This document shows, one piece after another, positions 3,050 to 47,466 of a DNA stretch of 52,870 bases; position 1 is the first letter of the stretch, and each line of letters begins with the position of its first letter. The notes under the pieces are model-generated. The model was not told the DNA's origin. It did not search any database and saw only the letters and a program-made list of their open reading frames with translations. Made by a program: the position numbers and the translations under genes. This DNA comes from Alphaproteobacteria bacterium (GTDB lineage: Bacteria > Pseudomonadota > Alphaproteobacteria > CAAGCB01 > CAG-977), in assembly GCA_024413465.1 (NCBI GenBank), contig JAKSVU010000011.1, positions 1-52,870 on the forward strand. The letters are read 5' to 3'.

Positions 3050-5641
3050 ATGACAGCACCAAAAACAATCTATGCCTCTGATTACAAACCTTATCCTTAT
3101 CAAGTTAAACGCGTTGATATTTCGTTTGATTTAGATAGTACAAATACTCTCGTCACCACAAAAATGAATATTCATCAACTTGAACAAAAGCCTTTATTTT
3201 TAAATGGTGATGAAGTTGAACTCGTTTCAATCAAAGTTGATGATACTCCTGTATCTGATTATACACTTGATGAAGAAGGACTGACCTTTACCCCTTCGAA
3301 ATCAGATTTTACACTAGCAATACAAACGAAAATAAATCCAAAGGAAAATACAAAATTACAAGGTTTGTATGAATCAGATGGTATTTTGTGTACAAAATGC
3401 GAAACACATGGGTTCAGAAGAATTACTTTCTTTCCTGATCGCCCCGACGTTATGCCAATTTGGGAAACGACACTGATTGCAGATGGGAAAAAATATCCAA
3501 AACTTGTTTCAAACGGAAATAAAAAATCTTTTGAAAAATTACCTGATGGAAAAATAAAAGCCATTTTTTTTGATCCAATTCCAAAAGCTTGTTATTTATA
3601 TGCCGTTGTTGCAGGTAATCTTGATCAACTCACAGATGAATTTATCACGAAATCCGGTCGTAAAGTTGAACTAAACGTTTTTGTTGAATCTGGTAAGGGG
3701 ACAATGAGTAAATTCGCCGTTGAATCCCTAAAAAAAGCAATGAAATGGGATGAAGAGACTTTTCATCGTGAATACGATCATGACGTTTTTAATATCGTTG
3801 CCGTTTCCAATTTTAATTCTGGCGCTTGCGAAAATACGTCTCTCAACATATTCAATGATAAATATATATTAGCAAATTCACTTTTAGCAACCGATACGGA
3901 TTATCTCAACATTGAAGGCGTCGTGGCTCACGAATATTTTCATAACTGGTCAGGAAATCGTGTTACCTTGCGTGATTGGTTCGATCTAACTTTAAAAGAA
4001 GGTTTTACAGTTTATCGTGATCAAGAATTTTCATCAGATATGCGCACTCGAGCTGTAAAAAGAATTGAAGACGTTATTTCTTTGCGAAACTTTCAATTTA
4101 TTCAAGACGCAGGTCCGTTAGCTCATCCTATCCGTCCAGACTCATATATTTCAGTCCGTTCTCTTTACACGGGAACCGTTTATGACAAAGGGGCTGAAGT
4201 TATTCGAATGATGGAACGGATCGTTGGAACGGATAATTTCAGAAAAGGTGTTGATTTGTATTTTGCTAGACATGATGGACAAGCCGTCACTTGTCATGAT
4301 TTTGTCACAGCAATTTCGGACGCAACAAAAACGGACTTATCTCTTTTCGAACAAACTTGGTATCATCAGGCTGGAACGCCAACTGTTACGGCAACAGGCA
4401 GCTATAATCAACACAAACAAACGTATATGCTTGTCTTAAATCAAACGACACCTGCTACACCAGGACAGGACAAAAAGACACCTTTCGTTATTCCATTGGA
4501 AATTGCCTTACTTGATAAAAATGGAAATGAAATGGCACTCGATGCAAAGGGAACAACTTCAAAAGTTTTAGTCATGAATAAAGCAACTGAAACGTTTGTT
4601 TTTGAAAACGTCCCTTGTGCTCCAATTTTATCAGCAAATCGTCAATTTACTGCCCCCATTTACTTTAAAATGAAACGCTCTGATGATGAATGGGCTTTGT
4701 TGATGGAATGTGATAATGATTTATTCAACAGATGGGACGCAGGACAACAATTTGCCACAGAAATTTTATGTGATTTGGCTGATGATTTCGAAACTGGGAA
4801 AACAGAACCGTCAGTACAAACTCTCTTTAAAATTGACGTTTTTTGTTCTGCTTTAAAAACTTATCTGGAAAATAAAGAATTAGATAAATCTTTTATTTCA
4901 TTGGCCTTTACTTTACCAACTGAAAAAGCCATCGCTGAACACAGAAAAATTGTCAACGTCGATGCTATTCATCAGGCAAGAAAAACGTTAAGAACGTTAA
5001 TCGCAGAAAAATTACATCACGAACTTTTGTTAACTTATCATGAAAACATGACTGATGATTATCAAACGACAACGACAGATATTGGCAAACGAGCAATTAA
5101 AAATATGGCTCTTTCTTATTTATCTTTAAACGATTTAAAACCTGCAAAATATCAATATGAAACTGCCTCTAATATGACTGATAAATTTGCTGCAGTTCGT
5201 CCTTTCGTTTCAGAAGATCAATCCATTTTGGATAATTTTTATGAAACATACAAAGATTATTCTTTAGTCGTAGATAAATGGCTCATGTTACAAGCAACTG
5301 CTGATGAAAATAGTTTATTGACCGTCAAAAAATTACTTTCACACCCAGCATTTAACCTTAAAAATCCTAACAAAGTTCGTGCATTAATCGGGGCTTTTGC
5401 ATCAAATCCAACTGCTTTACATAAAGCCGACGGTTCCGGATATGATTTCATTGTTGAACAAACACTTGTAGTCGATAAAATCAATCCTCAAATTGCAGCA
5501 ACAATCCCTGTTTGTTTAGGAAACTGGAAAAAATTTGACTATACTCATCAACAAATGATGAAAAAAGCTCTTAAAAAAATTATGGATACGCCAAATTTAT
5601 CACCGAATACTTACGAAATTGTCTCTAAATCTTTGGGATAA
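3050..5641 (+). CDS. pepN: Aminopeptidase N, M1 family (first copy, variant GACEN motif)
   Basis: This is a cytoplasmic zinc aminopeptidase of 863 residues, the usual length for bacterial PepN. The zinc site HEYFH is at 294-298, with the third ligand Glu317 in LKEGFT. The exopeptidase motif, normally GAMEN, reads GACEN at 258-262 and is followed by TS instead of the usual KG. The glutamate that binds the substrate N-terminus is kept, so activity is likely but specificity may differ. It starts 3 bp after hisF and ends at a strong terminator. A second paralogue at 40088-42925 has the canonical motif. No signal peptide is visible. Confidence 0.93.
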   Translation: MTAPKTIYASDYKPYPYQVKRVDISFDLDSTNTLVTTKMNIHQLEQKPLFLNGDEVELVSIKVDDTPVSDYTLDEEGLTFTPSKSDFTLAIQTKINPKENTKLQGLYESDGILCTKCETHGFRRITFFPDRPDVMPIWETTLIADGKKYPKLVSNGNKKSFEKLPDGKIKAIFFDPIPKACYLYAVVAGNLDQLTDEFITKSGRKVELNVFVESGKGTMSKFAVESLKKAMKWDEETFHREYDHDVFNIVAVSNFNSGACENTSLNIFNDKYILANSLLATDTDYLNIEGVVAHEYFHNWSGNRVTLRDWFDLTLKEGFTVYRDQEFSSDMRTRAVKRIEDVISLRNFQFIQDAGPLAHPIRPDSYISVRSLYTGTVYDKGAEVIRMMERIVGTDNFRKGVDLYFARHDGQAVTCHDFVTAISDATKTDLSLFEQTWYHQAGTPTVTATGSYNQHKQTYMLVLNQTTPATPGQDKKTPFVIPLEIALLDKNGNEMALDAKGTTSKVLVMNKATETFVFENVPCAPILSANRQFTAPIYFKMKRSDDEWALLMECDNDLFNRWDAGQQFATEILCDLADDFETGKTEPSVQTLFKIDVFCSALKTYLENKELDKSFISLAFTLPTEKAIAEHRKIVNVDAIHQARKTLRTLIAEKLHHELLLTYHENMTDDYQTTTTDIGKRAIKNMALSYLSLNDLKPAKYQYETASNMTDKFAAVRPFVSEDQSILDNFYETYKDYSLVVDKWLMLQATADENSLLTVKKLLSHPAFNLKNPNKVRALIGAFASNPTALHKADGSGYDFIVEQTLVVDKINPQIAATIPVCLGNWKKFDYTHQQMMKKALKKIMDTPNLSPNTYEIVSKSLG

Positions 5642-14732: not shown

Positions 14733-15356
14733 TTAACGCTGATTTGATTTCAAATTCAAAGCTGTTACAAAGCCACCAGGATTTCCCAACCCAGAAGCCA
14801 TCAAATTTTTGACTTCATCCTTATAAGATGATTTTTCTTTACCAAACAACTTCTCTTTCATTTTGCGTAAAGCAATTTGAGTGTGTTTTAATTCAGCATA
14901 TTCTGCTAAATCACTTTTCGTTTTTACAGGAGCTTCTTGATCCTGACCAACACCAGAAATTCCATAACCAAAACAAGATACGAAACCTGCACCAGCTAAA
15001 ACTGAAACGGAGGCCATAGCATCCATTCCTTGAGAAGCCATAACACCTGTTACAACGGCAGCTGCTCCACATATAATAGCTTTGGACATATCTTTATTTG
15101 TTTCGTACATATATTTCAATTTTGTTTTCAAAGGAGTATCGGCAATTTCCTTATTATTATTTTCTTCCATACGATCCAAAATTTTCTTTGCAGCCGATTT
15201 AGAAGGAGCTTTTAAATCAGTCCCTGCCTTTTGCTTTTTTGCCATGTATTGATCCATCAATTTTTCAGCATCTGAATTTGATTTTGCCGGGCCCATCGCT
15301 TCAACAGCACCACTTAGATAGACACCCAATCTCATAGCTGTATCGAGTTCACCCAT
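14733..15356 (-). CDS. Unknown protein with two membrane segments and a K-S-x-x-R tail
   Basis: I do not recognise this protein. It begins MGELDTAMRLGVYL, has a charged alpha-helical stretch (about 25-95), then two adjacent hydrophobic segments (AIICGAAAVVTGVMASQG and MASVSVLAGAGFVSCFGYG), and a basic C-terminal part ending LNLKSNQR. The tail resembles the ends of the two metallopeptidase-like proteins at 46-48 kb (AAKSAGR, SAKTAGR). The start at 15356 has AAGGA 7 bases upstream; further in-frame ATGs up to 15398 also follow a GGGAG and would add up to 14 residues. A terminator follows directly, so it is a single gene. Confidence 0.6.
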   Translation of the reverse strand: MGELDTAMRLGVYLSGAVEAMGPAKSNSDAEKLMDQYMAKKQKAGTDLKAPSKSAAKKILDRMEENNNKEIADTPLKTKLKYMYETNKDMSKAIICGAAAVVTGVMASQGMDAMASVSVLAGAGFVSCFGYGISGVGQDQEAPVKTKSDLAEYAELKHTQIALRKMKEKLFGKEKSSYKDEVKNLMASGLGNPGGFVTALNLKSNQR

Positions 15357-15523
15357 TGTGATTCCTTTTTCAGATTCAATAAACATAGACATTTTCATAT
15401 ACTCCCATAATTTTATTTTCGGGCATTGTACTATATTTTTGTCAATTTTGTCAAATAATATATCCAGAATCTTTTATTCCACATAAAAAATCATATTTAG
15501 TGAAAATCATTTCTGTGTATTTT

Positions 15524-17083
15524 TCATAAGGAGAACAAATTTTTGAAAAATTTATTTTTCTTTTTGTTTTGAATAATATTATCCAAGAAATCGCGATGAA
15601 CGATAATCACATTAAAAGTTTTGAAATATGGTTTCATCAATCTTGCAATTTTTGAACGTTCTCGCGTTGCTGTTAAATCACCAACAGCAATATCTATTTT
15701 CTTATTTTCCATAGCCTTAAACATTGTATCATAATCATGTGGAACAAACTTTTCAATACCATATCCTAAATCCTGTAATTGATGATACAAAATATCTATC
15801 GCCAATCCAATAGGGTTACCATCGTCATCCAAATAAGAAAAAGGAGCTGCATTAGGAATAAATCCAATAACAAGTTTCTGTTTTCCATCAGGGAATTGTG
15901 GTAATTTTTTTAAACCTTCATCTACACCGAACCAGGTATGATGAGCTTTTTTATATACACCATTATAAATGTACTGTTCTTGTAATTGATTCATTTGATC
16001 ACGCAAATCTTGATGAATTGGAGAAAGAGCAATTGAATACGTATTTTCACCTAGTTTAGCTGGATAAATCACGTATTCTGGATGTTTTCTGATAATTGGC
16101 AACGCAACAGGAAATGCAAAATTTGCTCCGACAATATCTCTTCTTTCAAGAGCGGAAAACAACTCATCATTTCCTGGATATAACACCTCTTTTGCAAGTG
16201 GAACTTCGGCTTCCAAAATAGGTGCATCACCCGGTAAAGTTCCTACAGGCAAATTATGGAATACGGTAACATCATTTTCCTCAATATAGCGATCCTTTTT
16301 GATGACAACTGACAAATTTTCTTCAACAAAATGTTTCGTAAAATTTATATATTCCTTGCGTTCTGGTGTAATCTGCAAATTTGAACCCCATACTTGAACG
16401 TTACCAGACTTTATCTGTTCAGGAATATCATCAAAATAGAAATCTTTTATTTCAGCTTTGATTTTGGCATAAACGGCAAATCGCTTGATAAATTCAACCA
16501 AATACCCCATATTATTATTTGATTTATCTTTATAACTCATTGGGGAATAATCTTTTTCAACGGCAAAAACGACTGTTTCCGTTGGATTTTTAACCTCTGA
16601 TATTTTGGGCATTTTCTCATCACCATTATAAATCCAACGATGATACATATCTTCAAAAATTTCTTTATTTTTATTATCGGCAATAAATGAATTTAATTTT
16701 TCCAACAAATCTTGTCTATTCTTACTTACACCCATCCCTACGTCAGTCAATGAATGAACAATGTACGTCACTTTTAAATCTGGATATTTCTTTTCAATTT
16801 TTTTATGTAAGGAAGAAGCGATTACCGTCGCATCTGCTTCACCTAAATGAACTGCTTCTAAAGTTTCATCAAACGTAGTATATTCTTTGTATGATGCATA
16901 TGGGAATTTTTTAAGAGTAATATCACTTTCAAACGTTCCCTTTTGAACTGCAAAAGTATAATTAACTTCATTCAACATACCATTATTAAAGATATAATCG
17001 AATTGGCCAACCTTTGCTGCATTTACACAATTTATATTAAGGCTAAAAAAACATAACAAAAATAAAATTACTTTTTTTATCAT
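15524..17083 (-). CDS. Periplasmic solute-binding protein, permuted tandem SBP_bac_3
   Basis: The 519-residue exported protein has a signal peptide (1-22). Residues about 41-153 resemble only the second lobe of an amino-acid-binding SBP_bac_3 domain (YTFAVQKGTFE... GEADATVIAS). Residues 169-386 form a complete SBP_bac_3 domain (VFAVEKDYSPMSY, ITPERKEYINF, ending HHTWFG). Residues 402-498 match only the first lobe (KLVIGFIPNAAPFSYLDDDG... VGDLTATRERSK). The order is thus lobe 2, full domain, lobe 1, as if one of two tandem domains were circularly permuted. No permease is adjacent. It may bind amino acids or act as a sensor. Its paralogue is 14 bp upstream. Confidence 0.8.
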   Translation of the reverse strand: MIKKVILFLLCFFSLNINCVNAAKVGQFDYIFNNGMLNEVNYTFAVQKGTFESDITLKKFPYASYKEYTTFDETLEAVHLGEADATVIASSLHKKIEKKYPDLKVTYIVHSLTDVGMGVSKNRQDLLEKLNSFIADNKNKEIFEDMYHRWIYNGDEKMPKISEVKNPTETVVFAVEKDYSPMSYKDKSNNNMGYLVEFIKRFAVYAKIKAEIKDFYFDDIPEQIKSGNVQVWGSNLQITPERKEYINFTKHFVEENLSVVIKKDRYIEENDVTVFHNLPVGTLPGDAPILEAEVPLAKEVLYPGNDELFSALERRDIVGANFAFPVALPIIRKHPEYVIYPAKLGENTYSIALSPIHQDLRDQMNQLQEQYIYNGVYKKAHHTWFGVDEGLKKLPQFPDGKQKLVIGFIPNAAPFSYLDDDGNPIGLAIDILYHQLQDLGYGIEKFVPHDYDTMFKAMENKKIDIAVGDLTATRERSKIARLMKPYFKTFNVIIVHRDFLDNIIQNKKKNKFFKNLFSL

Positions 17084-17097
17084 CTTTTTCTCACAAT

Positions 17098-18678
17098 TTA
17101 GTTCTTAAAAATTTTTTTTAATTTATCCCACCATTTTTCTTCAAAACTTACATCATCCATAAATTCGATAGGAACAACGAAAACGTTAAATGTATTGAAA
17201 AATGAATTGAGCATCTTAAATTTTTTAGCTCGTTCACGAGTTGCACTTAAATCACCAACCGCAATATCTATTTCATTTTTTTCTAATGCTTCAAATATCG
17301 TTTCATAATTATAAGATTTTAAAATTTCAACGCCATATCCTAAATCACTTAAATAGTGATAAAGAAGATCTATAGAAAAGCCAACAACCTCACCATTTCC
17401 ATTATCATATGAAAAAGGATATGCTTTTTCGATATAACCAACTTTAATTTTATTTTTTCCATTTGGAACAGACTTTATCACTTTTAGGTTTTCATCCTTT
17501 CCAAACCAAATTTTTTGTTTACTTTTTAACGTTCCATTTTTTTCAAGTTTCTTTTGTAAATTTTCTATTTGATCGGACAAAATCTTATCTGTTTTACGAA
17601 CAAAAAATGAATATTTATCCATTCCTATCTGTGTAGGAAACAACGTATATTTCGGATTATTTTGAACCAATTCCATAGCTAAAGGATATCCCAATAAAGC
17701 CACGTCAATTTCACCTTTTTGGAAATCCGTAATTATTTGATCATTATCTACGTATCGAACTAATTGTGCCATAGGAACAGAATTTTCCAAAGTCTCGTAC
17801 AAACATGGCAAAGTTCCAATTTTTTTATTATTAAATTTCGTTAAATCTCGATAAGCCGCCATACGCTCTTTGCGAACTATAGTTACAAAATTTTCATCCA
17901 AAAAACCTTCGGTAAAATTCATATAATGTAACCGTTCTTTTGTTTCTTTGATATTCGAGGCAAAAACTTGATATTCACCCGTTTTCATTTTTTCCTGAAT
18001 ACGATCAACACTATCAGTAACAATATTTATGTTAATATTTGCAAACAGAGCAAATCTCTTTAAAAATTCAATGTAATACCCAACTTGTTCTCCTTTTTGA
18101 TTAAGAAAACTCATCGGGAAAAAATCATGTTCTACTGCAACTGTAATTGTTTCTGTTGCCTTTTTAGGTGTTTGAAACTTTTTTGGCAAATCAGTATGAT
18201 TTTTTCTCAACCAATAAGTATACATTTCATCAAAAACGCCACTTGTAGAGATTGTTGCAATAAAATGATTAAACTGTTTTAGTAAATCTGGACGACTTTT
18301 AATAATAGAAATTCCAGTTTTGCTATTCATTTGTAAAATTTCTGGCATAACAACCAAATTAGGATTTCGTCTGACAACATGATATTCTAAAAAAGAGGGC
18401 ATAATAAACGCATCTACTTTTTCATCTGCAACAGCCTGAATCCCCTCATCGTATGAATCGACTTCGTACAAAAGACTACTTGGAAACTTATCCATCGTAA
18501 ACTGATAATCATACGTGCCCCGTTGAACTGCAAAAGTATATTCTGCATCATTCAACATATCATTATTAAAAATCAACTGATCTACAGAAACTTGTTTTGC
18601 AAAAACAATTTCCGCGTTTAAACAAAGCAAGAATGTAAAAAAATAAAATAATGCCCTTTTAACCATGAATAAGCTCAT
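17098..18678 (-). CDS. Periplasmic solute-binding protein, permuted tandem SBP_bac_3 (paralogue)
   Basis: This 526-residue paralogue of the next gene has the same layout: signal peptide, a lone second lobe (YTFAVQRGTYD...), a full SBP_bac_3 domain (VAVEHDFFPMSF to KIWFGKDE) and a lone first lobe (KVGYIEKAYPFSYDNGNG... VGDLSATRERAKK). Clear divergence from its neighbour suggests an old tandem duplication and different ligands. The first lobe keeps the usual PFSY and TRERAK segments. The start could also be the ATG at 18666; neither has a strong SD. The two genes are probably co-transcribed. Confidence 0.8.
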   Translation of the reverse strand: MSLFMVKRALFYFFTFLLCLNAEIVFAKQVSVDQLIFNNDMLNDAEYTFAVQRGTYDYQFTMDKFPSSLLYEVDSYDEGIQAVADEKVDAFIMPSFLEYHVVRRNPNLVVMPEILQMNSKTGISIIKSRPDLLKQFNHFIATISTSGVFDEMYTYWLRKNHTDLPKKFQTPKKATETITVAVEHDFFPMSFLNQKGEQVGYYIEFLKRFALFANININIVTDSVDRIQEKMKTGEYQVFASNIKETKERLHYMNFTEGFLDENFVTIVRKERMAAYRDLTKFNNKKIGTLPCLYETLENSVPMAQLVRYVDNDQIITDFQKGEIDVALLGYPLAMELVQNNPKYTLFPTQIGMDKYSFFVRKTDKILSDQIENLQKKLEKNGTLKSKQKIWFGKDENLKVIKSVPNGKNKIKVGYIEKAYPFSYDNGNGEVVGFSIDLLYHYLSDLGYGVEILKSYNYETIFEALEKNEIDIAVGDLSATRERAKKFKMLNSFFNTFNVFVVPIEFMDDVSFEEKWWDKLKKIFKN

Positions 18679-18750: not shown

Positions 18751-20379
18751 TTATTCAATCCATTCCTTGATAGGAGCACATATGATTCCAACTAACTTTT
18801 CGATTAAACCTGGAACGTCCGGATTGTAATTTTTCTTGGAAAAATCTATAATATCCATTCCCTTATGATCACGATAATCCAATCTTGCGCCACCCCTTAC
18901 AAGACGGCGAACAACGTCTGGATTTGGATTCATTGCTGCTGCAAACATCAAAGGAGTTCTGCCATCGGTAAAGGTTTGATTTACCTCTGCTCCATTTTCT
19001 ATCAAGATATCAATAATTTTAGGATTTGGATTCAAGCTAGCAGCATACATCAAAGCGCAATACCCATTACTACTTTTGAAATTAACTTTAGCACCAGCTT
19101 TCAACAATTCAACAATAACTTGTTCATCTGTATTTCCCATTGCAGCATACATCAATGGAGTTAATCCATTATCATCAACTTTATTCAAATCTTGCTGATC
19201 AAAAACCATTTTTTGAATTTCTTCTTTAGTCGTAAAAGCATATTTGAATTTTAATTTTCTGTTTTCTAAATTTAACAAATCAATAATGGGCTGACTTTGA
19301 CAAAGCCGAACAGCTAAGCGATAAGCTGTTACTCCATGAGATTCTGTTAAATCCTTTCTAGCTCCACAACGAATAAGACGTTTGATAATCTCTGGATTTT
19401 TATTATTAATTGCTGCACACATTAATGCTGTAAAACCATGATTATCTTGAGCATTTACATCTGCTCCTGCATCAACTAAGACTTGGATAATTTCTGGATT
19501 TGGATTTGAAAAAGCTGCTCCCATTAAAGCCGTTGATCCATTTGACAGTTTCTGTGCCGGATTAAATCCTGCTGAAATTAAGGCTTTTATAATGTAGGGA
19601 TTTTTATTTACCTTGCAAGTATACATCAAAGCATCTTCACCTTCAGCATTTTTTACATCCAAATGAATATTTGCATTGATGAGTGTATTTAAGATGTGGG
19701 CATCAATTTCATCGCCACTAATCCTTGTCGTCAAGAAATTATATAATGGTGAATTTTTTTTGTTATCAAGAGATTCTATATTTGCCTTGTTGTTAATAAG
19801 TATTCTAATGATATATGGATTTGTATTATTTAAAACAGCATAATGGAAAGCTGTTCTACCATCCTTATCTTTTTCTTCTAACTTAGCTTTATTCTTGAGT
19901 AGTATTTCAATAACATCTTCATTGACGTTACTCTTAGCCGCACACATCAATGGGGTCATACCATCTTTATCAGTAAAATTAACGTTTGATTTTGATAAAA
20001 TCAGTTCTTCTATCACGTCTGCATGAATGTTTTTTTTGCAAGCGTACATTAACGGTGTCCATCCATAACGATCCGTATGTTTGACGTCAGCTCCTGCTTT
20101 TACTAATGCTTTAATAATATCTGAATTTTTTGTATGATAGGCAGCGTAAGTTAAAGCTGTCCATCCTTCGGAAGTTTCAGCCTTAACACTTGCCCCTGCT
20201 TTTAATAACATTTTTACGACACGCAAATCATTTGATTTTCTAACAGCCAACATCAACGGAGTTATACCAGAAACATCTGAAACGTTTACGTTTGGTTTCA
20301 TATCCAACAAAACAGATAAGGCCGCATAAAGACCTTCAGATGCATAATCTATGATCAATAATGAATTCTTTAAATCCAT
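18751..20379 (-). CDS. Ankyrin-repeat protein
   Basis: The 542-residue protein is almost entirely ankyrin repeats, about 13-14 of them, many with the core G.TALM.AA..N.NPEII..L..AGA. The period is often 34 residues rather than the usual 33, through an added residue in the NPNP loop. One divergent stretch near residues 360-400 splits the array in two. There is no signal peptide or enzyme domain. Ankyrin proteins mediate protein binding and are common in host-associated alphaproteobacteria, where some are secreted effectors; that role is only a possibility here. It lies 11 bp after the FliX-like gene, likely in one transcript. Confidence 0.88.
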   Translation of the reverse strand: MDLKNSLLIIDYASEGLYAALSVLLDMKPNVNVSDVSGITPLMLAVRKSNDLRVVKMLLKAGASVKAETSEGWTALTYAAYHTKNSDIIKALVKAGADVKHTDRYGWTPLMYACKKNIHADVIEELILSKSNVNFTDKDGMTPLMCAAKSNVNEDVIEILLKNKAKLEEKDKDGRTAFHYAVLNNTNPYIIRILINNKANIESLDNKKNSPLYNFLTTRISGDEIDAHILNTLINANIHLDVKNAEGEDALMYTCKVNKNPYIIKALISAGFNPAQKLSNGSTALMGAAFSNPNPEIIQVLVDAGADVNAQDNHGFTALMCAAINNKNPEIIKRLIRCGARKDLTESHGVTAYRLAVRLCQSQPIIDLLNLENRKLKFKYAFTTKEEIQKMVFDQQDLNKVDDNGLTPLMYAAMGNTDEQVIVELLKAGAKVNFKSSNGYCALMYAASLNPNPKIIDILIENGAEVNQTFTDGRTPLMFAAAMNPNPDVVRRLVRGGARLDYRDHKGMDIIDFSKKNYNPDVPGLIEKLVGIICAPIKEWIE

Positions 20380-20390
20380 GTAAAGAACCT

Positions 20391-20834
20391 CTATACCATC
20401 AATTTGGCAAGTTCAACGTCTGCTCTTAATTGAATTTCATCTAAAATGTCTTTTAATTCAGAATCAAGACCTTCTTCTCGAGTTTGTTTTAATAAATTAG
20501 ATAATTCCAACAGTTTTTGTTTTGAAATGCGACCAGACAAAATAGCCAATCTTAAATCCTCTAATTTATCCAAAATATCATTCCCATGTTGGACTGCTCT
20601 TTTTTTACGTTGTTTAGCCAAATCAGCTTCATCAACGAATTGAGCAGCAAGAATAGCATCCACAGAAAGTACACCACTCATTGCTGAAACCCCTGCAGAA
20701 GATGCTGTTTCTGAGACATTACTCAACAATGAAGAAAATTCTGCAGCTTGTGCAGAAGAAACACCACCTGTTTTTCCAACAGACCCCGTACTAGACACTG
20801 ATGAAGATGAACTGACTTTACTTACAGAAGCCAT
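20391..20834 (-). CDS. fliX: FliX-like flagellar assembly regulator
   Basis: The 147-residue protein has a serine-rich, low-complexity N-terminus (residues 1-50) and a C-terminal region (HGNDILDKLEDLRLAILSGRISKQKLLEL... LKDILDEIQLRADVELAKL) that matches alphaproteobacterial FliX. In Caulobacter FliX links flagellar assembly to FlbD-dependent transcription. No other flagellar gene is in the window, so motility or a reused role cannot be decided. It sits between a STAS-domain gene (11 bp) and the ankyrin gene (11 bp). Confidence 0.75.
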   Translation of the reverse strand: MASVSKVSSSSSVSSTGSVGKTGGVSSAQAAEFSSLLSNVSETASSAGVSAMSGVLSVDAILAAQFVDEADLAKQRKKRAVQHGNDILDKLEDLRLAILSGRISKQKLLELSNLLKQTREEGLDSELKDILDEIQLRADVELAKLMV

Positions 20835-20845
20835 TTTTATTTTCC

Positions 20846-21148
20846 TTAATCAATCATTTCAATGAATGCAGAAATGCCAGTCATATCCAAAACGTTTTGA
20901 ACAACGTCATTTGCATGATAGATGGTCAATTTTCCATTACTTGCCACTAATTTATTTTTTGTTGATAACAACACACGAATTCCAGCAGATGCCATATAAT
21001 CTACACCTGCAAAATCCAAAATAACATGTGTTGTTGTTTTTAACAATTCCGTAATTTCATGATCTAAGGATGCTACCTCAGATGAAACAAGATTGCCTGT
21101 TAATTTTAAAGCAGTTTCACCATTTACCTTAATTTTTTTAATTTCCAT
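20846..21148 (-). CDS. STAS-domain protein (anti-sigma factor antagonist-like)
   Basis: The 100-residue protein is a single STAS domain. The segment VILDFAGVDYMASAGIRVLLSTKNKL carries the conserved serine (YMASAG) that is phosphorylated in SpoIIAA-type antagonists. Such proteins act in partner-switching cascades with an anti-sigma kinase, none of which is seen here. It is the first gene of the STAS-FliX-ankyrin set, with close spacing throughout. Confidence 0.8.
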   Translation of the reverse strand: MEIKKIKVNGETALKLTGNLVSSEVASLDHEITELLKTTTHVILDFAGVDYMASAGIRVLLSTKNKLVASNGKLTIYHANDVVQNVLDMTGISAFIEMID

Positions 21149-23216: not shown

Positions 23217-23930
23217 ATGACACCAGAAGAAAAGCAACATATCTTACAAAAAGCAAAACAATTTTTTAAGGATAAAATTGTTGAAAATCATAAAAAGCAG
23301 ACAGAAAAAGCCAAACATTTAAAAGAATTTAATCCCAATCCGTTTTTACAAAAATACTTAGCTAATTTCGCATTTGGAAATTGCGACAGCAAATGTATTG
23401 CCAAGGCTCTTGTTTATCCTCGTGTTTTAGGAACATCAATAAATACAATTTTTGGCACTCAGATGCAATCATTTTGCAAGGATGTATTAAACGGCTTTGC
23501 TTCGACTACGTCTGGTATTGATATTGAGTTTAAGGATCAAGTTGATGGTCGCCATAAATATTGTCAAATCAAAGCTGGACCAAATACCATAAACAAAGAT
23601 GATATTACAACCATATTAAACCACTTCCAAGCAATCAGAAATTTGGCTCGAACAAATGGTTTAAAAGATTTCAACCCAGATATTGATTGCGTGGTTGGTG
23701 TTTTTTATGGCTGCAATGACGATTTATCGACAATGTATAAAACTATTAACAAGTCCCATCCTGTTTTTGCAGGTAAAGAATTTTGGTATAGACTGACTGG
23801 TGATGAAGATTTTTATGAAGCATTAATTGATAATATCGCAGAAGTTGCAAATGAGATTGACGGTACTGCTATTATTGAAGATGTAGTTAATAGTTTAGCA
23901 AAAGAAATTGAAGAAAAATCAAATAATTAA
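23217..23930 (+). CDS. Type II restriction endonuclease, EcoO109I/PmeII-like
   Basis: The 237-residue protein resembles the EcoO109I-type restriction enzymes, which cut RGGNCCY-like sites. The candidate PD-(D/E)xK centre is GID (Asp102), then YCQIKAGP (Gln117, Lys119); Q replaces the usual E, as in some family members. The segment GTQMQSFCKDVLNG precedes it. A GGAG SD lies 8 bases before the ATG. A terminator follows, then the cognate-looking methyltransferase on the same strand. The recognition site cannot be read from sequence; GGNCC-type is a guess from the family. Confidence 0.7.
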   Translation: MTPEEKQHILQKAKQFFKDKIVENHKKQTEKAKHLKEFNPNPFLQKYLANFAFGNCDSKCIAKALVYPRVLGTSINTIFGTQMQSFCKDVLNGFASTTSGIDIEFKDQVDGRHKYCQIKAGPNTINKDDITTILNHFQAIRNLARTNGLKDFNPDIDCVVGVFYGCNDDLSTMYKTINKSHPVFAGKEFWYRLTGDEDFYEALIDNIAEVANEIDGTAIIEDVVNSLAKEIEEKSNN

Positions 23931-23952
23931 TAAAAATCATCTCAAATATGAA

Positions 23953-23984
23953 AAATAACCCTTGCATATATGCAGGGGTTATTT
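23953..23984 (+). terminator. Terminator between restriction enzyme and methyltransferase genes
   Basis: A long stem (AATAACCC.TGCA/TGCA.GGGTTATT, with one T-G pair) has a four-base loop and a following T-rich stretch. It would separate the two transcripts and allow independent control. Confidence 0.8.
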
Positions 23985-24018
23985 TATATTGTATTCAGTT
24001 AACAAGGGAGATTTGATT

Positions 24019-25251
24019 ATGTGGCTATCTATTCACGAAGTAAGTGAAAAACTAAATTTATCCATTGATACAATAAGACGCTGGGAAAAAAAAGGGTTAA
24101 TCAAAGCTGAGCGTTCTGATAAAAATCATCGTATGTTTAATGATGATGAAGTTTTTGCTTTGTTGGATAAGTTAAATAATAAGTCAGAAGAAGAATTTAA
24201 GGTATTAAAATCAGAAATTAAATCTCCTTATACTGCAATAGAATTATTTGCAGGAGCTGGGGGAACTGCTTTAGGTTTTGAAAATGCAGGTATTCAACAC
24301 ATTTTATTAAATGAAATAGATAAAGATTGTGTTGCAACGTTGCAACATAATTTTCCTAAAGGAACAAATATTATCCATGCAGATGTTCACAATGTAGATT
24401 TTTCTCAATGGAAAGACAAAGTTGATATAGTTCAAGCCGGTTTCCCTTGTCAGGCATTTAGTTATGCTGGAAAAAGTATGGGATTTGAGGATACCAGAGG
24501 AACATTGTTTTTTGAATTTGCTCGCTGTGTTAAAGAAACAATGCCTAAGATTGCGGTTGGTGAAAATGTCAAAGGATTGTTAAAGCACGATAATGGTAGA
24601 ACCTTGAAAACGATGATTAATGCCTTGAAAGAAATTGGCTATAAGGTGCAGTATAAAGTTTTAAGAGCACAATATTTAGATGTGCCACAAAAAAGAGAAA
24701 GGCTCATAATTATTGCGATTCGTAATGATTTGAACATTCCTTTTATCTTTCCTACAGAGAAAAATTATACAGTTTCGCTAAGAGCTGCGTTAAAAGATTG
24801 TCCTAAATCAGAAGGTCAAAGCTATCCTAAACGCAAAGCCGAAATATTGTCATTAGTTCCTGAGGGTGGTTATTGGCGAGATTTACCGATTGATATACAA
24901 AAAGAATATATGAAAGGAAGTTTTCATTTATCTGGTGGTAAAACTGGTATGGCCAGACGTTTATCGTGGGATGAACCAAGTTTGACGCTAACTTGTGCTC
25001 CAGCTCAAAAACAAACAGAGCGTTGTCACCCAAGTGAAACAAGACCATTAACAGTGAGAGAATATGCAAGAATCCAGTCATTTCCCGATAATTGGAAATT
25101 TCAAGGCACTATGTCAGCACAATACAAACAAATTGGTAATGCCGTTCCTGTCAATTTGAGCTATCATATTGGTTGTTGTTTGGTTGAAATGTTGGACTGC
25201 CTAAGTAATGGCTCAACAGAAGAACAATCATTCAAAATGGCAGCAGAATAA
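24019..25251 (+). CDS. MerR-HTH / C5-cytosine DNA methyltransferase fusion
   Basis: The 410-residue protein starts with a MerR-type helix-turn-helix (residues 1-50: LSIHEVSEKLNLSIDTIRRWEKKG), then a full cytosine-5 methyltransferase: motif I AIELFAGAGG (73-82), motif IV with catalytic Cys144 in GFPCQAF, motif VI GENVKG (181-186), motif VIII QKRERL, motif IX RPLTVREYARIQSFP and motif X QIGNAVP. It should protect DNA from the neighbouring nuclease. The HTH suggests it also controls transcription of the system. The start at 24019 follows AAGGGAG; a longer frame from 23962 would read through the terminator. The methyltransferase and nuclease families fit each other (GGNCC-type). Confidence 0.92.
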   Translation: MWLSIHEVSEKLNLSIDTIRRWEKKGLIKAERSDKNHRMFNDDEVFALLDKLNNKSEEEFKVLKSEIKSPYTAIELFAGAGGTALGFENAGIQHILLNEIDKDCVATLQHNFPKGTNIIHADVHNVDFSQWKDKVDIVQAGFPCQAFSYAGKSMGFEDTRGTLFFEFARCVKETMPKIAVGENVKGLLKHDNGRTLKTMINALKEIGYKVQYKVLRAQYLDVPQKRERLIIIAIRNDLNIPFIFPTEKNYTVSLRAALKDCPKSEGQSYPKRKAEILSLVPEGGYWRDLPIDIQKEYMKGSFHLSGGKTGMARRLSWDEPSLTLTCAPAQKQTERCHPSETRPLTVREYARIQSFPDNWKFQGTMSAQYKQIGNAVPVNLSYHIGCCLVEMLDCLSNGSTEEQSFKMAAE

Positions 25252-32322: not shown

Positions 32323-34074
32323 TTAAACGTTTTTCGGATCTAAGTCTTCTTGCAATTTGCAACGTTTTTCATAGGTTGTATGCAAGTTTTCATGAGCTTC
32401 GTGTGTTGCAGGACCGCCTTCGAAATATTTATTGTAAATATCATAAACGGCAGCATTTTCCTGAGATTTACGCATTGCACATTTTTCATCTGCTTTGTAT
32501 AAACCTTCAGCACGTTGCATCTTCTTAGCCATACCTTCTGAAATTGGTTGACCAGCTCCACCGACGCATCCGCCTGGGCAAGCCATGACTTCAATTAAAT
32601 CGTATTGGCATGTACCAGCTTCAACTTGTTCGCAAACTTTTCCAGCATTCTTCAAGCCGTGAACGATAGCTAATTTTAATTTTTTACCGTTCAATTCAAC
32701 TTCAGCTTCACGAATACCTTCGAAACCACGAACAGCCTTGAATTCGATAGCATCCTTAATACCGCCAACTTTTTCAGCAGCATAACGCAATACAGCTTCC
32801 ATAACACCACCGGTTACACCGAAAATAACGGCAGCACCTGTGTAGTTACCTAATGGACTATCCAATTCTGTATCTGGTAATTCAGCTAAATTGATACCAC
32901 TTGACTTCAACATTGTAGCCAATTCTTGGGTTGTCAAAACATGATCGATTTCATATTTATCACCCTTCTTGAATTGATCACGACGAGCTTCAAATTTCTT
33001 TGCTGTACATGGCATAATAGAAATTGAAACGATATCGTCATTTGACTTACCTGTGATCTCTGGCATAGCTTTACGAACAACAGCACCGAACATACCTTGT
33101 GGTGAACGGCAACTTGAAATATTCTTCAAAACTGTTGGGTGGAATGTTTCAGCATATTTAATCCAAGCTGGGCAGCAAGAAGTAAACATTGGGAACACAC
33201 CATTGTTTGTTAAACGACCAACAAATTCTGTAGCTTCTTCAACAATTGTCATATCAGCTGTGAAGTTTGTGTCGTAAACGTAATCAACACCCAATTTTTT
33301 CAAAGCTGTAACAATTTTCTTTGTTGAATCAACACCAGCTGGTAATCCAAATTCTTCTGCAATAGCAACGCGAACTGCTGGAGCCATTTGAACAACTGTT
33401 ACTTTTGCTGGATTGTTAATATCAGCCATTGTTTCATCAACTTCGCTATGAATTGTCAAAGCACCTGTTGGGCAAGCTGCAGCACATTGACCGCAGTTGA
33501 CACATTCAGATTTATTCATATCGATATTGAATGCTGTAATAACAGTACTGTTTGAACCACGTTTTGCAAAGTTCAAAGCTCCTACACCTTGAATTTCAGA
33601 ACATGTTCTGACGCAGTTTCCGCACAAAATACATTTATCTGGATCGCGGACGATTGAATAAGAGCTAGCATCGACTTTATTGCCTTTTGTTAACATCTTA
33701 TAACGAATGTCTGTTACACCGACTTTGCGTGCGATAGCTTGTAATTTACATTTTGTAGATTTTGCACATTTCAAGCAATCTTGTGGATGGGAAGCCAACA
33801 ACAATTCCATTGTATTGCGACGCAATTTACGGATTTGATCTGTGTTGGTTTTAATTTTCAAACCTGCTTCTGGAGGAACAGAACAAGATGATTGAATACC
33901 ACGTCCTTCGATTTCGACTAAGCACAAACGGCAAGCACCGAAAATACTCAATTCTGGATGATAACAGAATGTCGGGATATCAATTCCAACCTTACGGCAA
34001 AGTTCTAATATATTACGTTCATTTTCGATTTCGACTTCGATACCGTCAATGAATAATGTTTTCTTTTCACTCAT
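32323..34074 (-). CDS. hndD: [FeFe]-hydrogenase catalytic subunit (HydA/HndD type)
   Basis: This subunit makes or uses H2 at the H-cluster. The 583-residue protein has an N-terminal [2Fe-2S] domain (CYHPELSIFGACRLC), a His-Cys [4Fe-4S] motif (HPQDCLKC), two [4Fe-4S] clusters (CILCGNC, CVNCGQC at 191-197) and the three H-cluster signatures TSCCPAW (298-304), MPCTAKKFEA (354-363) and ACPGGCVGGAGQP near 500. The short C-terminal SSU-like region is complete. It is the last gene of an operon with NuoF- and NuoE-like subunits, as in NADH- or bifurcating hydrogenases. The maturases HydE, HydF and HydG are not in the window. Confidence 0.95.
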   Translation of the reverse strand: MSEKKTLFIDGIEVEIENERNILELCRKVGIDIPTFCYHPELSIFGACRLCLVEIEGRGIQSSCSVPPEAGLKIKTNTDQIRKLRRNTMELLLASHPQDCLKCAKSTKCKLQAIARKVGVTDIRYKMLTKGNKVDASSYSIVRDPDKCILCGNCVRTCSEIQGVGALNFAKRGSNSTVITAFNIDMNKSECVNCGQCAAACPTGALTIHSEVDETMADINNPAKVTVVQMAPAVRVAIAEEFGLPAGVDSTKKIVTALKKLGVDYVYDTNFTADMTIVEEATEFVGRLTNNGVFPMFTSCCPAWIKYAETFHPTVLKNISSCRSPQGMFGAVVRKAMPEITGKSNDDIVSISIMPCTAKKFEARRDQFKKGDKYEIDHVLTTQELATMLKSSGINLAELPDTELDSPLGNYTGAAVIFGVTGGVMEAVLRYAAEKVGGIKDAIEFKAVRGFEGIREAEVELNGKKLKLAIVHGLKNAGKVCEQVEAGTCQYDLIEVMACPGGCVGGAGQPISEGMAKKMQRAEGLYKADEKCAMRKSQENAAVYDIYNKYFEGGPATHEAHENLHTTYEKRCKLQEDLDPKNV

Positions 34075-34091
34075 AAACTTAAGCCTTTCTA

Positions 34092-35972
34092 TTATATGCC
34101 TTTGATGGCGCCGAACTTACATGTTGCTTTACATGCACCGCATTTAATACATTTATCTGGATCAATGTGGTGTGGTTGTTTTACTGTACCGGAAATAGCA
34201 CCTGCTGGGCATTTACGAGCACAAGCTGTACAACCTTTGCAAACGTTTGGATCAATTTCAGGTCTTGCTAAAGCTTTGCATTGTCCAGCTGGGCAACGTT
34301 TATCTTTAACGTGAGCTACATATTCATCACGGAAATAACGCAATGTTGATAATACTGGATTTGGAGCTGTTTTACCTAAACCACACAAGCTTGCAGCTTG
34401 AACTGTTTTAGCTGTTTCTTCCAACAAATCCAATGTTTCCATTGTACCGCGACCTTCACAAACGTCATCTAACAAAGCTAACATTTGTTTTGTACCTTCA
34501 CGGCATGGTGTACATTTACCGCAAGATTCATTTTGTGTAAATTGCATGAAGAAACGAGCAACGTTACACATACATGTATCTTTATTCATAACAACCAATC
34601 CACCAGAACCGATCATAGCGCCAACTGAACGCAATGAGTCAAAATCCATTGGGATATCTAAGTGTTCTGCTGTCAAGCAACCACCTGATGGACCACCTGT
34701 TTGAGCTGCTTTAAATGCGGAATTGTCAACTTCGCCTTTAGCATTGATAACGCCACCAGCAACGTTGAAAATGATTTCACGCAATGTTGTTCCGCATGGA
34801 ACTTCAACCAAACCTGTGTTAGCAACACAACCTGTAACAGCGAACGTCTTTGTACCAGGAGATTTTTCTGTACCAACTGATTTATATTCAGCAGCACCTT
34901 TTAAGAAAATAACTGGAACAGAAGCCAACGTTTCAACGTTATTGATTGTTGTTGATTTACCCCACAAACCAGATACAGCTGGGAATGGAGGTTTTGGAGA
35001 TGGCATACCACGAGCACCTTCAATAGAGTGCATCAAAGCTGTTTCTTCACCGCAAACGAAAGCACCAGCACCTTCCATAACGGACAAGGTGAATTTTTTA
35101 CCGGTACCAAATACGTTATCACCCAAGATACCTAATTCAGTAGCTTGTTGAATAGCAAAACGCATACGTTTAACAGCCAAAGGATATTCTGCACGGCAGT
35201 AAATGAAACCTTCATCAGCTCCAATACCAGCAGCAGCAATCATCATACCTTCGATAACGGCATGTGGATTACCTTCCATAACTGAACGATCCATAAATGC
35301 ACCTGGATCGCCTTCATCAGCGTTGCAAACGATATATTTCTTATCGCATGTGACTTTGCGAGCGATATCCCACTTACGACCAGTTGGGAATCCACCACCA
35401 CCACGGCCACGCAAACCAGAATCAATAACTTCCTGACAAATTTGTTCTGCATTCATTGTGGTATATGCTTTTTCAGCACCTTTATAACCATCACGATAGA
35501 TATATTCACGAATATCTAAAGGATCTAAATGACCACATTTTGCTAAAACTGTTCTGCGTTGTCCTTTATAGAAAGGAATATCTTTTGCACCTTTGCACAA
35601 ACATTTATCTGGACCAACGTATAACAAACGTTCAATAACTTCATGGTTCTTTAATGTTTTTTCAACGATCTCTGCTGCATCTTCAGCATGAGCATGGCAA
35701 TACAAAATACCATCTGGTTCAATTGATAATAAAGGACCTTTTTGACAGAATCCTTGGCAACCACTTCCAGACAATAATGTTTTGTCTTTTACTTCGCCTT
35801 TTAATTCAACAATTACGTCGATTCCTGCTTTTTTAGCTTCTTCGATTAAAGCATCATGCAATTTCAAGGAACCGTTTGCGATACACCCTGTACCTGCGCA
35901 AACAATCATACGACGTTGTAATTTTTCATATTCTTGTTTGTAGTCAGCGGCAATTTTAACCAAATCTACCAT
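34092..35972 (-). CDS. hndC: NADH-binding hydrogenase subunit (HydB/HndC, NuoF-like)
   Basis: This flavoprotein exchanges electrons between NAD(H) and the iron-sulphur chain. The 626-residue protein has an N-terminal thioredoxin-like [2Fe-2S] domain (VCAGTGCIANGS, SGCQGFCQKG), the NuoF core with FMN/NAD sites (GRGGGGFPTGRKWD, CNADEGDPGAFMDRS), the N3-type cluster CGKCTPCREG and a C-terminal pair of [4Fe-4S] sites (CKGCTAC, CIKCGAC). It lies between the NuoE-like gene (1-base overlap) and the catalytic subunit gene (17 bp). Confidence 0.95.
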   Translation of the reverse strand: MVDLVKIAADYKQEYEKLQRRMIVCAGTGCIANGSLKLHDALIEEAKKAGIDVIVELKGEVKDKTLLSGSGCQGFCQKGPLLSIEPDGILYCHAHAEDAAEIVEKTLKNHEVIERLLYVGPDKCLCKGAKDIPFYKGQRRTVLAKCGHLDPLDIREYIYRDGYKGAEKAYTTMNAEQICQEVIDSGLRGRGGGGFPTGRKWDIARKVTCDKKYIVCNADEGDPGAFMDRSVMEGNPHAVIEGMMIAAAGIGADEGFIYCRAEYPLAVKRMRFAIQQATELGILGDNVFGTGKKFTLSVMEGAGAFVCGEETALMHSIEGARGMPSPKPPFPAVSGLWGKSTTINNVETLASVPVIFLKGAAEYKSVGTEKSPGTKTFAVTGCVANTGLVEVPCGTTLREIIFNVAGGVINAKGEVDNSAFKAAQTGGPSGGCLTAEHLDIPMDFDSLRSVGAMIGSGGLVVMNKDTCMCNVARFFMQFTQNESCGKCTPCREGTKQMLALLDDVCEGRGTMETLDLLEETAKTVQAASLCGLGKTAPNPVLSTLRYFRDEYVAHVKDKRCPAGQCKALARPEIDPNVCKGCTACARKCPAGAISGTVKQPHHIDPDKCIKCGACKATCKFGAIKGI

Positions 35973-36478
35973 TATGCTTTCTCTCTTTCTAAAATTTTAT
36001 CGATCTCAGCCAAAGCTTTATCAACAGTCATTTGACCATGAACTTCATCATTGATCACCATTACTGGAGCCAAACCACATGCACCCAAGCAAGATACTGT
36101 TTCTAACGTAAACATCATATCGCTAGATGTTGGTTTTTTAGCACTTAAACCTAATTTTTCACGAACGGCAGCCAAAATTGGTTCGGAGCCACGAACGTGA
36201 CAAGCTGTTCCGTCACACAAACGAATCAAATATTTACCTTTTGGTTCTAACGAAAAATGTGCATAGAACGTTGCAACACCGTAAATACGGCCAGCTGGAA
36301 TTTTTAATTCTTCAGCTACAAAATTCATCACTTCTTTCGGCAGATAACGATAAACTTCCTGTACCTGTTGAAGGATAGGAATCAAGCGTGAAGGATTGTT
36401 GCCATTGGCTTTCAAAATTTCACGCACTTTTTCAAGTTTCTCAACGGCAGTTAAGTTCTGCCCTGTTGTTTCTGTCAT
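35972..36478 (-). CDS. hndA: NuoE-like hydrogenase subunit (HydC/HndA)
   Basis: The 168-residue thioredoxin-like [2Fe-2S] subunit carries electrons between the flavin and the catalytic subunit. Four cluster cysteines are visible in LCDGTACHVRG and SCLGACGLAP. The N-terminal helical segment (NNPSRLIPILQQVQEVYRYLP) and GRIYGVATFYAHF are family features. It is the first gene of the hydrogenase operon and its stop overlaps the start of the next gene (TAATG). Confidence 0.93.
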   Translation of the reverse strand: MTETTGQNLTAVEKLEKVREILKANGNNPSRLIPILQQVQEVYRYLPKEVMNFVAEELKIPAGRIYGVATFYAHFSLEPKGKYLIRLCDGTACHVRGSEPILAAVREKLGLSAKKPTSSDMMFTLETVSCLGACGLAPVMVINDEVHGQMTVDKALAEIDKILEREKA

Positions 36479-39887: not shown

Positions 39888-40087
39888 AGTCTTTCTCCAA
39901 TCATATTTTTCGATAAAAATTAAACTTTTTTGTCAATTTTGTCAATAAAAAAGATTCTCATTGTTAAGATTTTCCTATATATAAATAAAATATACGATAT
40001 TATTCATTTTTTTATTGATTTGGACAAAAAAAGAATATATTGTTGTCGAAAATAAAATCATCAATTAAAGTAACAAGGGATGAAATA

Positions 40088-43451: not shown

Positions 43452-44861
43452 ATGAAAAAGCTATTATTATTTTTCGTTTTTTTGATTTTTCTCATTCACG
43501 CAAACGTAACCCAAGCAAAAACATATCGAATTGGAATGGACGCAACTTTTCCCCCATTTGAATATAAAGAAAATGGAAAAACAGTTGGTTTTGATATTGA
43601 TTTAATCAAAGAAATCGAAAAAAATACAAATTATCAAATTCAACTTGTTGAAATGGGATTAGACGCACTCATTCCCGCTGTTAAAACAAACAATATAGAT
43701 ATGATTATTTCTGGAATATCAATTACATCCGAACGATCAAAATCTGTTTTATTCTCTGATCCTTATTTCAAGACAGGCCTTCAATTACTTGTTCTCAAAG
43801 AAAACGATACCATCAAAAATATCGACGATTTAAATGGGAAAAAATTAGGAGTTGAATTAGGAAGCACAGCTGAAGTATATGCAAGAAAATTAAAAGGGGT
43901 AAAAGTTAAAACCTTTTCAAATATGAGTGAAATGAATTTAGATCTTGTCAACAAAGGAATAGACGCTTCTTTAAATGATACTTTCATTCACGAATATTAT
44001 TTGGCTCACGGTGGTGATAAATATGCAAAAATTGTTGGTGACACTGTTGAAAAAGCAGATGTAGGAATTGCTTTTAACAAAAAAAATATCGAATTAAAAA
44101 AAGAAGTAGATATCATCCTCAATAAATTAAAAAAAGATGGCACCTATGAAAAAATTTACACAAAATGGTTTGGCAAAAACAATACAAAACCGGCAGAACG
44201 CGGTAGCATTTTCAATTTTATAAAAAGTATTTCTCCTCTTTTACTTTCAGGAACACTTCTAACGATCCAAATTTCAGGAATCAGTTTTTTAATTGGATTA
44301 TTGATTGGATGTTCTATGGGAATTATACGGTTGTGTCCGTCAAGAATATTACGAATATTTGCAACTTTCTATATTGATTTTTTACGAGGAACACCACTTC
44401 TTGTTCAAATTTTTATGATTTATTTTGCTCTTCCACAATTACTGGATAGACACGTTGACGCTTATTTTGCAGCAATTACAGCTTGTTCTTTAAACATAGG
44501 AGCTTACATCGCTGAAGTTATCCGTTCTGGCATACAATCAATTGACAAAGGGCAAATGGAAGCGAGTTTTTCTCTAGGTTTATCTTGGTTTAAAACAATG
44601 CGTTTTGTGATTTTACCCCAAACGTTTAAACGAATTGTTCCACAATTAGGAAATGAATTGATTGCCCTTTTAAAAGATTCTTCTCTTGTCTCTGTTATCG
44701 GTTTTGAAGAACTCACAAGACAAGCTCAAATAATTATTTCACAAACGTACGCTTCCCTTGAAGTTTGGATGGCTGTTTCAATTATCTACTTAATGATGAC
44801 AATTATCATTTCTCAAAGTGTTAAATACATTGAAAAAAGGTGGGCAAAGTCATGTCAATGA
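43452..44861 (+). CDS. Amino-acid ABC transporter, binding protein-permease fusion
   Basis: The 469-residue protein joins a signal peptide (1-22), a periplasmic SBP_bac_3 domain (about 23-245: YRIGMDATFPPFEYKENGKTVGFDIDL) and a HisM/GlnP-type permease (about 255-465) with the EAA-like loop EASFSLGLSWFKTMRFVILPQ. It imports polar amino acids, possibly glutamine or arginine. The ATPase gene overlaps its end, so the operon supplies a full importer (fusion plus ATPase). Confidence 0.92.
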   Translation: MKKLLLFFVFLIFLIHANVTQAKTYRIGMDATFPPFEYKENGKTVGFDIDLIKEIEKNTNYQIQLVEMGLDALIPAVKTNNIDMIISGISITSERSKSVLFSDPYFKTGLQLLVLKENDTIKNIDDLNGKKLGVELGSTAEVYARKLKGVKVKTFSNMSEMNLDLVNKGIDASLNDTFIHEYYLAHGGDKYAKIVGDTVEKADVGIAFNKKNIELKKEVDIILNKLKKDGTYEKIYTKWFGKNNTKPAERGSIFNFIKSISPLLLSGTLLTIQISGISFLIGLLIGCSMGIIRLCPSRILRIFATFYIDFLRGTPLLVQIFMIYFALPQLLDRHVDAYFAAITACSLNIGAYIAEVIRSGIQSIDKGQMEASFSLGLSWFKTMRFVILPQTFKRIVPQLGNELIALLKDSSLVSVIGFEELTRQAQIIISQTYASLEVWMAVSIIYLMMTIIISQSVKYIEKRWAKSCQ

Positions 44862-45643
44862 TTAAAATATCTGAACTTAAAAAAAATTTTGGTAATCAAC
44901 AAGTTTTAAAAGGTATTAATTTAGAAATTGAGGCTGGTAAAGTTGTTGTCTTAATTGGACCATCAGGTTGTGGGAAAAGCACCCTCCTAAGATGTATGAA
45001 TTTTCTTGAAGAACCATCGTCAGGAACTATTGAAATAGATGGAACACCTTTAAATCATGAAACGATCAAGGATTTACAAAAACAAATTGGAATGGTTTTC
45101 CAAAAGTTCAATTTGTTTCCTAATCTGACAATTTTGGAAAATTTAACACTTGCCCCCATTCAAGTTTTAAAAATGAATAAAACAGATGCAGAAAACACTG
45201 CAAAAAAATATCTGAAAAAAGTTGGATTGTTATCAAAAATAAATGCTTATCCAGAACAGCTTAGTGGAGGACAACAACAACGGGTCGCAATTGCCCGAAC
45301 TTTATGTATGAACCCTCAAATTTTATTGTTTGATGAACCGACTAGTGCACTTGATCCAGAAATGGTCAATGAAGTTCTTGACGTAATCAAAGAATTAACA
45401 AAATCTGGAAAAACGATGATTCTTGTAACACATGAAATGTCTTTTGCTCGTGAAATTGCTGATATCATTCTTTTTTGCGATAAAGGAATCATTTTGGAAC
45501 AAGGAAGTCCTGAAGAAATTTTTGACCATCCTAAACAACAAAGAACAATGGAATTTTTATCAAAAATTTTATCTACAACTAAAAAGAAAAATACTTTTTG
45601 GGAAAAAACAAAAAAACATTTGAAATTTAAAGGAAAAAAATGA
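44852..45643 (+). CDS. glnQ: Amino-acid ABC transporter ATP-binding protein
   Basis: This protein energises the adjacent permease. It has Walker A GPSGCGKST, Q-loop VFQKFNLFP, signature LSGGQQQR, Walker B ILLFDEPTSALDP and the switch histidine in VTHEMSF. The start at 44852 has GGTGGG 7 bases upstream; 44858 would give an ATGA overlap with the preceding stop and a family-like N-terminus (MIKISELKKNFG). It overlaps the HD-domain gene by four bases. Confidence 0.93.
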   Translation: MSMIKISELKKNFGNQQVLKGINLEIEAGKVVVLIGPSGCGKSTLLRCMNFLEEPSSGTIEIDGTPLNHETIKDLQKQIGMVFQKFNLFPNLTILENLTLAPIQVLKMNKTDAENTAKKYLKKVGLLSKINAYPEQLSGGQQQRVAIARTLCMNPQILLFDEPTSALDPEMVNEVLDVIKELTKSGKTMILVTHEMSFAREIADIILFCDKGIILEQGSPEEIFDHPKQQRTMEFLSKILSTTKKKNTFWEKTKKHLKFKGKK

Positions 45644-47452: not shown

Positions 47453-47466
47453 CGAAGTCTTCCCCT

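Follow-up and report, generated by a model that had tools for sequence, protein, structure and literature searches.

Tandem circularly permuted SBP_bac_3 proteins of an alphaproteobacterium: apparent descent from permease fusions and a possible role as ligand sensors for a SpoIIE/STAS switch

Two neighbouring genes of the window (the whole stretch of 52,870 nucleotides that was analysed) encode proteins A and B, in each of which two SBP_bac_3 (Venus-flytrap) units with circularly permuted lobe order follow one another. On balance, A and B are probably tandem permuted binding proteins that arose from permease fusions and act as periplasmic ligand sensors for a SpoIIE/STAS switch. The anatomy and ancestry of the two proteins are read from their sequences and are supported by the predicted structure; the narrower proposal, that they are periplasmic ligand sensors rather than transporter components, is put forward with more reserve, at slightly less than an even chance. 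The genes and lobes (D1 and D2) are located as follows.

15524..17083 (-): protein A, 519 aa; signal peptide, two circularly permuted SBP_bac_3 units and a short C-terminal helix
16625..16963 (-): A unit 1, D2 and C-terminal part of D1 (D1c), residues 41-153; structure-sequence matches and lobe models
16289..16576 (-): A unit 1, N-terminal part of D1 (D1n), residues 170-265, including the TxER arginine; lobe models
15926..16255 (-): A unit 2, D2 and C-terminal part of D1, residues 277-386; lobe models
15590..15880 (-): A unit 2, N-terminal part of D1, residues 402-498; lobe models and lobe distances
15527..15589 (-): A C-terminal helix, residues 499-519, ending ...KFFKNLFSL; like the pre-permease segment of the fusions, by eye
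17098..18678 (-): protein B, 526 aa, paralogue of A with identical layout
18202..18537 (-): B unit 1, D2 and C-terminal part of D1, residues 48-159; lobe models
17866..18150 (-): B unit 1, N-terminal part of D1, residues 177-271; lobe models
17497..17829 (-): B unit 2, D2 and C-terminal part of D1, residues 284-394; lobe models
17170..17451 (-): B unit 2, N-terminal part of D1, residues 410-503; lobe models

The two open reading frames and the permuted lobe order described in the original prediction are present, as Pfam, phmmer and the lobe models agree. The Pfam model SBP_bac_3 (PF00497) matches A with 149.7 bits and B with 138.9 bits as compared to a gathering cut-off of 26.4, and the match is split into three stretches in each protein, the best being the middle one (A 172-386, B 178-394). 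In a phmmer comparison with solved structures, T. maritima ArgBP is matched by A in two parts, its second half (117-227) by residues 40-151 and its first half (11-105) by residues 403-498. The lobe models, which were built here from relatives and in which the D2 model includes the returning C-terminal part of D1, place D2 of A at 44-151 and ~277-385 and D1 at 173-255 and 404-488, with B likewise. The order in both proteins (38% identical) is a signal peptide followed by D2-D1-D2-D1, with D2-D1c-D1n within a unit, which upholds the expectation of two binding modules per chain. NCBIfam holds no model with this layout, its matches to A and B all being to canonical models and below cut-off, and the OpuAC family (PF04069) of Pfam reaches 14.6 bits in B against a cut-off of 21.2, A not being listed. 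Chance, misassembly and frameshift were ruled out as sources of the lobe order, since it is identical in the two paralogues, in a second genome and in 80 loci.

Four lobes in this order can pair either in tandem, (D2-D1)(D2-D1), or nested, D2-(D1-D2)-D1, with a canonical centre and the ends closing on each other. The latter was the original prediction, in which the centre consists of the first unit's D1 and the second unit's D2, and the terminal D2 and D1 form a second domain. It accords with the complete SBP_bac_3 domain that Pfam calls across the middle of A and B, a stretch that is expected under both pairings because the first unit's D1 and the second unit's D2 make it up. It also accords with the D1-to-D2 spacer of A and B, whose 20 aa are so close to the canonical SBP_bac_3 hinge (21-22 aa) that spacing alone cannot decide between the pairings for these two proteins; spacer length was dropped as a stand-alone test for A and B on this ground. 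In most relatives, however, the same spacer is long and its length varies (20-46 aa, n=76, sd 5.2), as compared to 18-23 aa (n=165, sd 1.1) between D2 and D1 within units. The pairwise-distance matrices of D2 and D1 correlate with r of 0.88 in-unit vs 0.56 nested for two-unit arrays, and 0.89 vs 0.44 for all arrays of n>=2, a measure of which lobes were inherited together that does not by itself prove packing. This co-inheritance favours the in-unit pairs (1-2)(3-4) over (2-3)(4-1). By the same lobe distances, unit 1 of A, of B and of the two-unit relative L005 cluster together, and the unit 2 D1 lobes of A and B are nearest each other and then L003. The existence of single-unit D2-D1 proteins and fusions also argues against nesting.

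The predicted structure of A points in the same direction. The model has a mean pLDDT of 87.5 and a pTM of 0.70 with a 52-row alignment, the rows of which are relatives with mostly longer spacers and could favour the tandem arrangement. Residues 41-267 (unit 1) align as one bilobed body, the best match being OpuAC (2b4l; Z 13.5, rmsd 4.2, 205 aligned residues), and none among the 50 structural matches listed is confined to residues 172-386. The lobe contacts of A are deduced from these alignment ranges, according to which residues 41-153 would pack within the body 41-267 and not with residues 402-498. The Pfam stretch across the middle of the chain stands, but a self-contained folded body at that place is not supported, and the closing of the ends into a second domain is disfavoured by both the structural alignments and the co-inheritance of lobes. 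For A, single-unit relatives, fusions and the predicted unit 41-267 suggest that the permuted D2-D1 order lies within one folded unit; the AlphaFold2 model of B, with a two-row alignment, has a pLDDT of 51 and is uninformative. It is very likely that the D2-D1 pairs of A and B are self-contained circularly permuted units, two of which make up each protein in tandem, whereas the nested closed chain is highly improbable.

The layout is not unique to A and B, as the search for other proteins with the same order revealed. The same genome encodes a protein of 276 aa with a single D2-D1 unit (L003), and a second genome of the genus (G002) encodes a two-unit protein (L005/L013) as well as a 1202-aa open frame with four units and then a permease. 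In other genera of the family and in a second family of the class, one or two units are fused to a permease, with an ATPase adjoining. A scan of the genomes of 84,980 species with permuted fusions as query yielded over 500 confirmed relatives; the analysis covered the best 80, whose record labels include Proteobacteria, Desulfobacteraceae, Chlorobium, Bacteroidetes, Bacillota, Acidobacteria, Gemmatimonadetes and others. The architecture in these 80 loci is (D2-D1)n-permease, with n=1 in 26, n=2 in 33, n=3 in 13 and n=4 in 4, numbers that show the appearance of permuted fusions and not their frequency among all SBP proteins, since the query was itself a permuted fusion. Three loci of this set begin with D1, all of them starting at a contig end, and one has unit and permease as separate ORFs. 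As n=1 is so common, one unit has to make a whole domain on its own, unless units are swapped between chains. A contig scan with A alone as query found no relative, and a phylum-wide sample at a strict cut-off gave a lone permease only. A and B belong to this widespread group, usually fused to a permease with an ATPase beside it, and share its repeated D2-D1 units, two each. They are without its C-terminal amino-acid-type permease and without an adjacent ATPase, and end in D1 and a short tail. Since domain databases place a spurious 'complete' domain across two units, the annotation of a large importer group is probably wrong.

The C-terminal ends of A and B suggest how they came to differ from the fusions. 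A, B, L003 and L005 run 15-25 aa beyond the hinge strand, their tails carrying short hydrophobic motifs (KFFKNLF, KKIFKN, GFFDKIKGL, SFLSKLL) and resembling, as judged by eye, the segment SF(F/L)..(I/A).SF that precedes the first membrane helix of the fusions; 11 of 14 standalone D2-D1 ORFs beside fusions end at the hinge strand. From these sequence features, A and B appear to derive from permease fusions by loss of the permease. That they are decaying remnants of a fused transporter, without present function, is very unlikely, even though the permease and the D2 aspartate have been lost and proteins of this type are sporadic in the genus, having been found in G000 and G002 and not in G001 or G003. 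A, B and the G002 relative retain full-length open frames and signal peptides, the core of A is confidently predicted, and the D1 motifs are conserved between A, B, L005 and L003, all of which speaks against decay.

In GlnBP, the TxER arginine holds the alpha-carboxylate of the ligand and the D2 aspartate its alpha-amine. The arginine of D1 is retained in all four units of A and B, and the aspartate is replaced in all four, so that the pair characteristic of amino-acid-binding SBP_bac_3 proteins is incomplete in both. The aspartate is kept in the permease fusions of the family (L007, L062, L017 and L022) and in units of the four-unit protein. With the aspartate lost, and given its role in GlnBP, a standard amino acid becomes less likely, and the ligand of A and B is probably not a standard alpha-amino acid, as far as these residues can indicate.

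The neighbourhood of the two genes suggests a link to partner switching. They close a same-strand run, STAS-FliX-Ank-B-A, with gaps of 11, 11, 72 and 14 nt, whose other members are given below.

20846-21148 (-): STAS anti-sigma factor antagonist with SAG motif, 100 aa; PF01740, 53.4 bits; found with the G002 STAS as query
20391..20834 (-): FliX, class II flagellar assembly regulator; Pfam
18751..20379 (-): ankyrin-repeat protein, 542 aa; Pfam; 72 nt from B, in the same apparent operon

The STAS gene, which was missing from the first ORF list because it falls below the size limit of that list, heads the run and places a STAS antagonist in the apparent operon of A and B. No SpoIIE or RsbW gene occurs in the run, so that within the window the link to a partner switch is made by STAS. 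Elsewhere in the genome, SpoIIE genes are found at C87, C39 and C42, and HATPase genes at C39 and C76. The run supports, without proving, that A and B serve a partner switch. Three STAS genes of the genome (L152, L153 and that of the window) lie just upstream of ankyrin genes, with SpoIIE/HATPase in between in one case and FliX in another, which suggests that the ankyrin proteins are partners of STAS. Directly downstream of A is a gene for a 221-aa protein (14733-15398, -) with no match in Pfam or NCBIfam.

The same association recurs among the relatives. In 925 kb of locus sequence, 17 SpoIIE ORFs were observed as compared to 0.8 expected and 26 STAS ORFs as compared to 1.3 expected, an enrichment of about 20-fold over an expectation taken from ten of the same genomes, the significance of which is overstated by Poisson values because the loci share ancestry. 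The locus contains the sole SpoIIE gene of the genome in Novosphingobium arvoryzae, Nitrosomonas communis and Nitrotoga fabula. A recurrent run is SpoIIE, (D2-D1)n-permease, ATPase with tail and STAS, at times with a HATPase. The ATPases beside the fusions carry a C-terminal tail of about 115 aa, the profile of which matches the RsbW-like HATPase genes of the same loci (hhalign 97%, E 8e-11); the tail is without N and G boxes and is therefore probably not a kinase. Similarity to it is found in up to 61 of the 80 loci, a few of the matches being separate HATPase genes. Examples of amino-acid-type ABC ATPases with the tail are L058 7840-8931, L031 2877-4010, L012 4348-5427 and many of L065-L144; Pfam does not call the degenerate RsbW-like HATPase domain in these ATPases. 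Among proteins devoid of a permease, the G002 member lies in an operon STAS - SpoIIE/HATPase - (D2-D1)x2, and a SpoIIE gene directly precedes L003, the single-unit relative in the genome of A and B.

These observations are consistent with a scheme in which A and B, which bear signal peptides by sequence and would be exported, close on a small ligand with each of their units. The liganded protein would contact the periplasmic part of a membrane-bound SpoIIE-type phosphatase, which would dephosphorylate the STAS antagonist of the operon; the change in STAS would in turn release a target, perhaps touching flagellar control given FliX. FliX and the ankyrin gene stand between STAS and B, which speaks against the sensor role. 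In a broader and more speculative form, permuted arrays, with or without a permease and an RsbW-tailed ATPase, might control SpoIIE/STAS in a ligand-gated partner switching that spans phyla, A and B being its permease-free sensors; this extension is given less than an even chance.

The main alternative is that A and B are ordinary permuted binding proteins for an ABC importer located elsewhere, STAS being an unrelated neighbour. Most relatives are indeed fused to a permease with an ATPase adjoining. The absence of a permease or ATPase next to A and B, claimed earlier, holds for the immediate neighbours, but the genome has a canonical set of binding protein, permease and ATPase 25 kb away (SBP_bac_3-permease fusion and ATPase, 43452-45643, +; unlike the permuted fusions of related genera), and A and B could serve a distant permease such as this fusion. 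That permease, however, already bears a canonical binding domain of its own, A and B have lost the D2 aspartate that the family's permease fusions retain, and the relatives devoid of a permease adjoin SpoIIE. Service to a remote importer is therefore considered unlikely, and the sensor role is the reading retained here.

Other features of the window include an EcoO109I-type restriction endonuclease beside a C5 cytosine methylase with an N-terminal MerR-type DNA-binding domain (23217-25251, +), an FeFe hydrogenase with NADH-dehydrogenase-like subunits (32323-36478, -), which points to a fermentative anaerobe, two tandem DUF6782 putative metallopeptidases (46244-48507, -), and two genes for M1 aminopeptidases that share their domain layout (3050-5641 and 40040-42925, +).

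Naturally permuted binding proteins are already known, as are permeases with tandem binding domains. The earlier view that no described family has this layout holds in part: permuted binding proteins have been published, but no description of the permuted SBP_bac_3 group was found in the literature searched, outside of which subscription papers mostly lay. Within the same bounds, no link of partner-switching modules to an ABC importer or a permuted binding protein was found. Arrays of 1-4 permuted SBP_bac_3 units that occur with SpoIIE/STAS neighbours and an ATPase bearing an RsbW-like tail thus appear to be new to the searchable literature. The repeat number of 1-4 offers a natural series for tracing the origin of circular permutation by duplication. 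That an ABC importer is coupled to an RsbW-like domain, to SpoIIE and to STAS suggests that nutrients feed into partner switching.

OpuAC, the glycine betaine-binding protein of B. subtilis (2b4l), is a circular permutant relative to ProX (PMC2395249). Like A and B, it has a bilobed class II fold with permuted lobe order, and it is the best structural match of A unit 1; unlike them, it belongs to another sequence family, has a single unit and binds betaine. TpMglB-2 of Treponema pallidum ('Type Ic / Cluster Bc') is also a permuted binding protein (PMC4990184), a natural circular permutation that still binds its ligand, whereas its Type I sugar-binding fold, single domain and site of permutation differ from those of A and B. 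In GlnPQ, the tandem SBP_bac_3 domains SBD1 and SBD2 are fused to an amino-acid permease and act independently (PMC8025302). Tandem SBP_bac_3 domains are common to GlnPQ and the permuted group, whereas the lobe order of GlnPQ is canonical, D1-D2-D1c. To our knowledge, GlnPQ has no RsbW-like ATPase tail. The Venus-flytrap sensors BvgS, EvgS and CdgH also have tandem SBP_bac_3-type domains and are among the top Foldseek matches; their single chain also includes a kinase or cyclase, whereas A and B are without a membrane domain. The SpoIIE/RsbU-STAS-RsbW modules, e.g. SiaA, consist of the same kinds of genes, STAS, SpoIIE and HATPase, as those that stand beside the permuted arrays.
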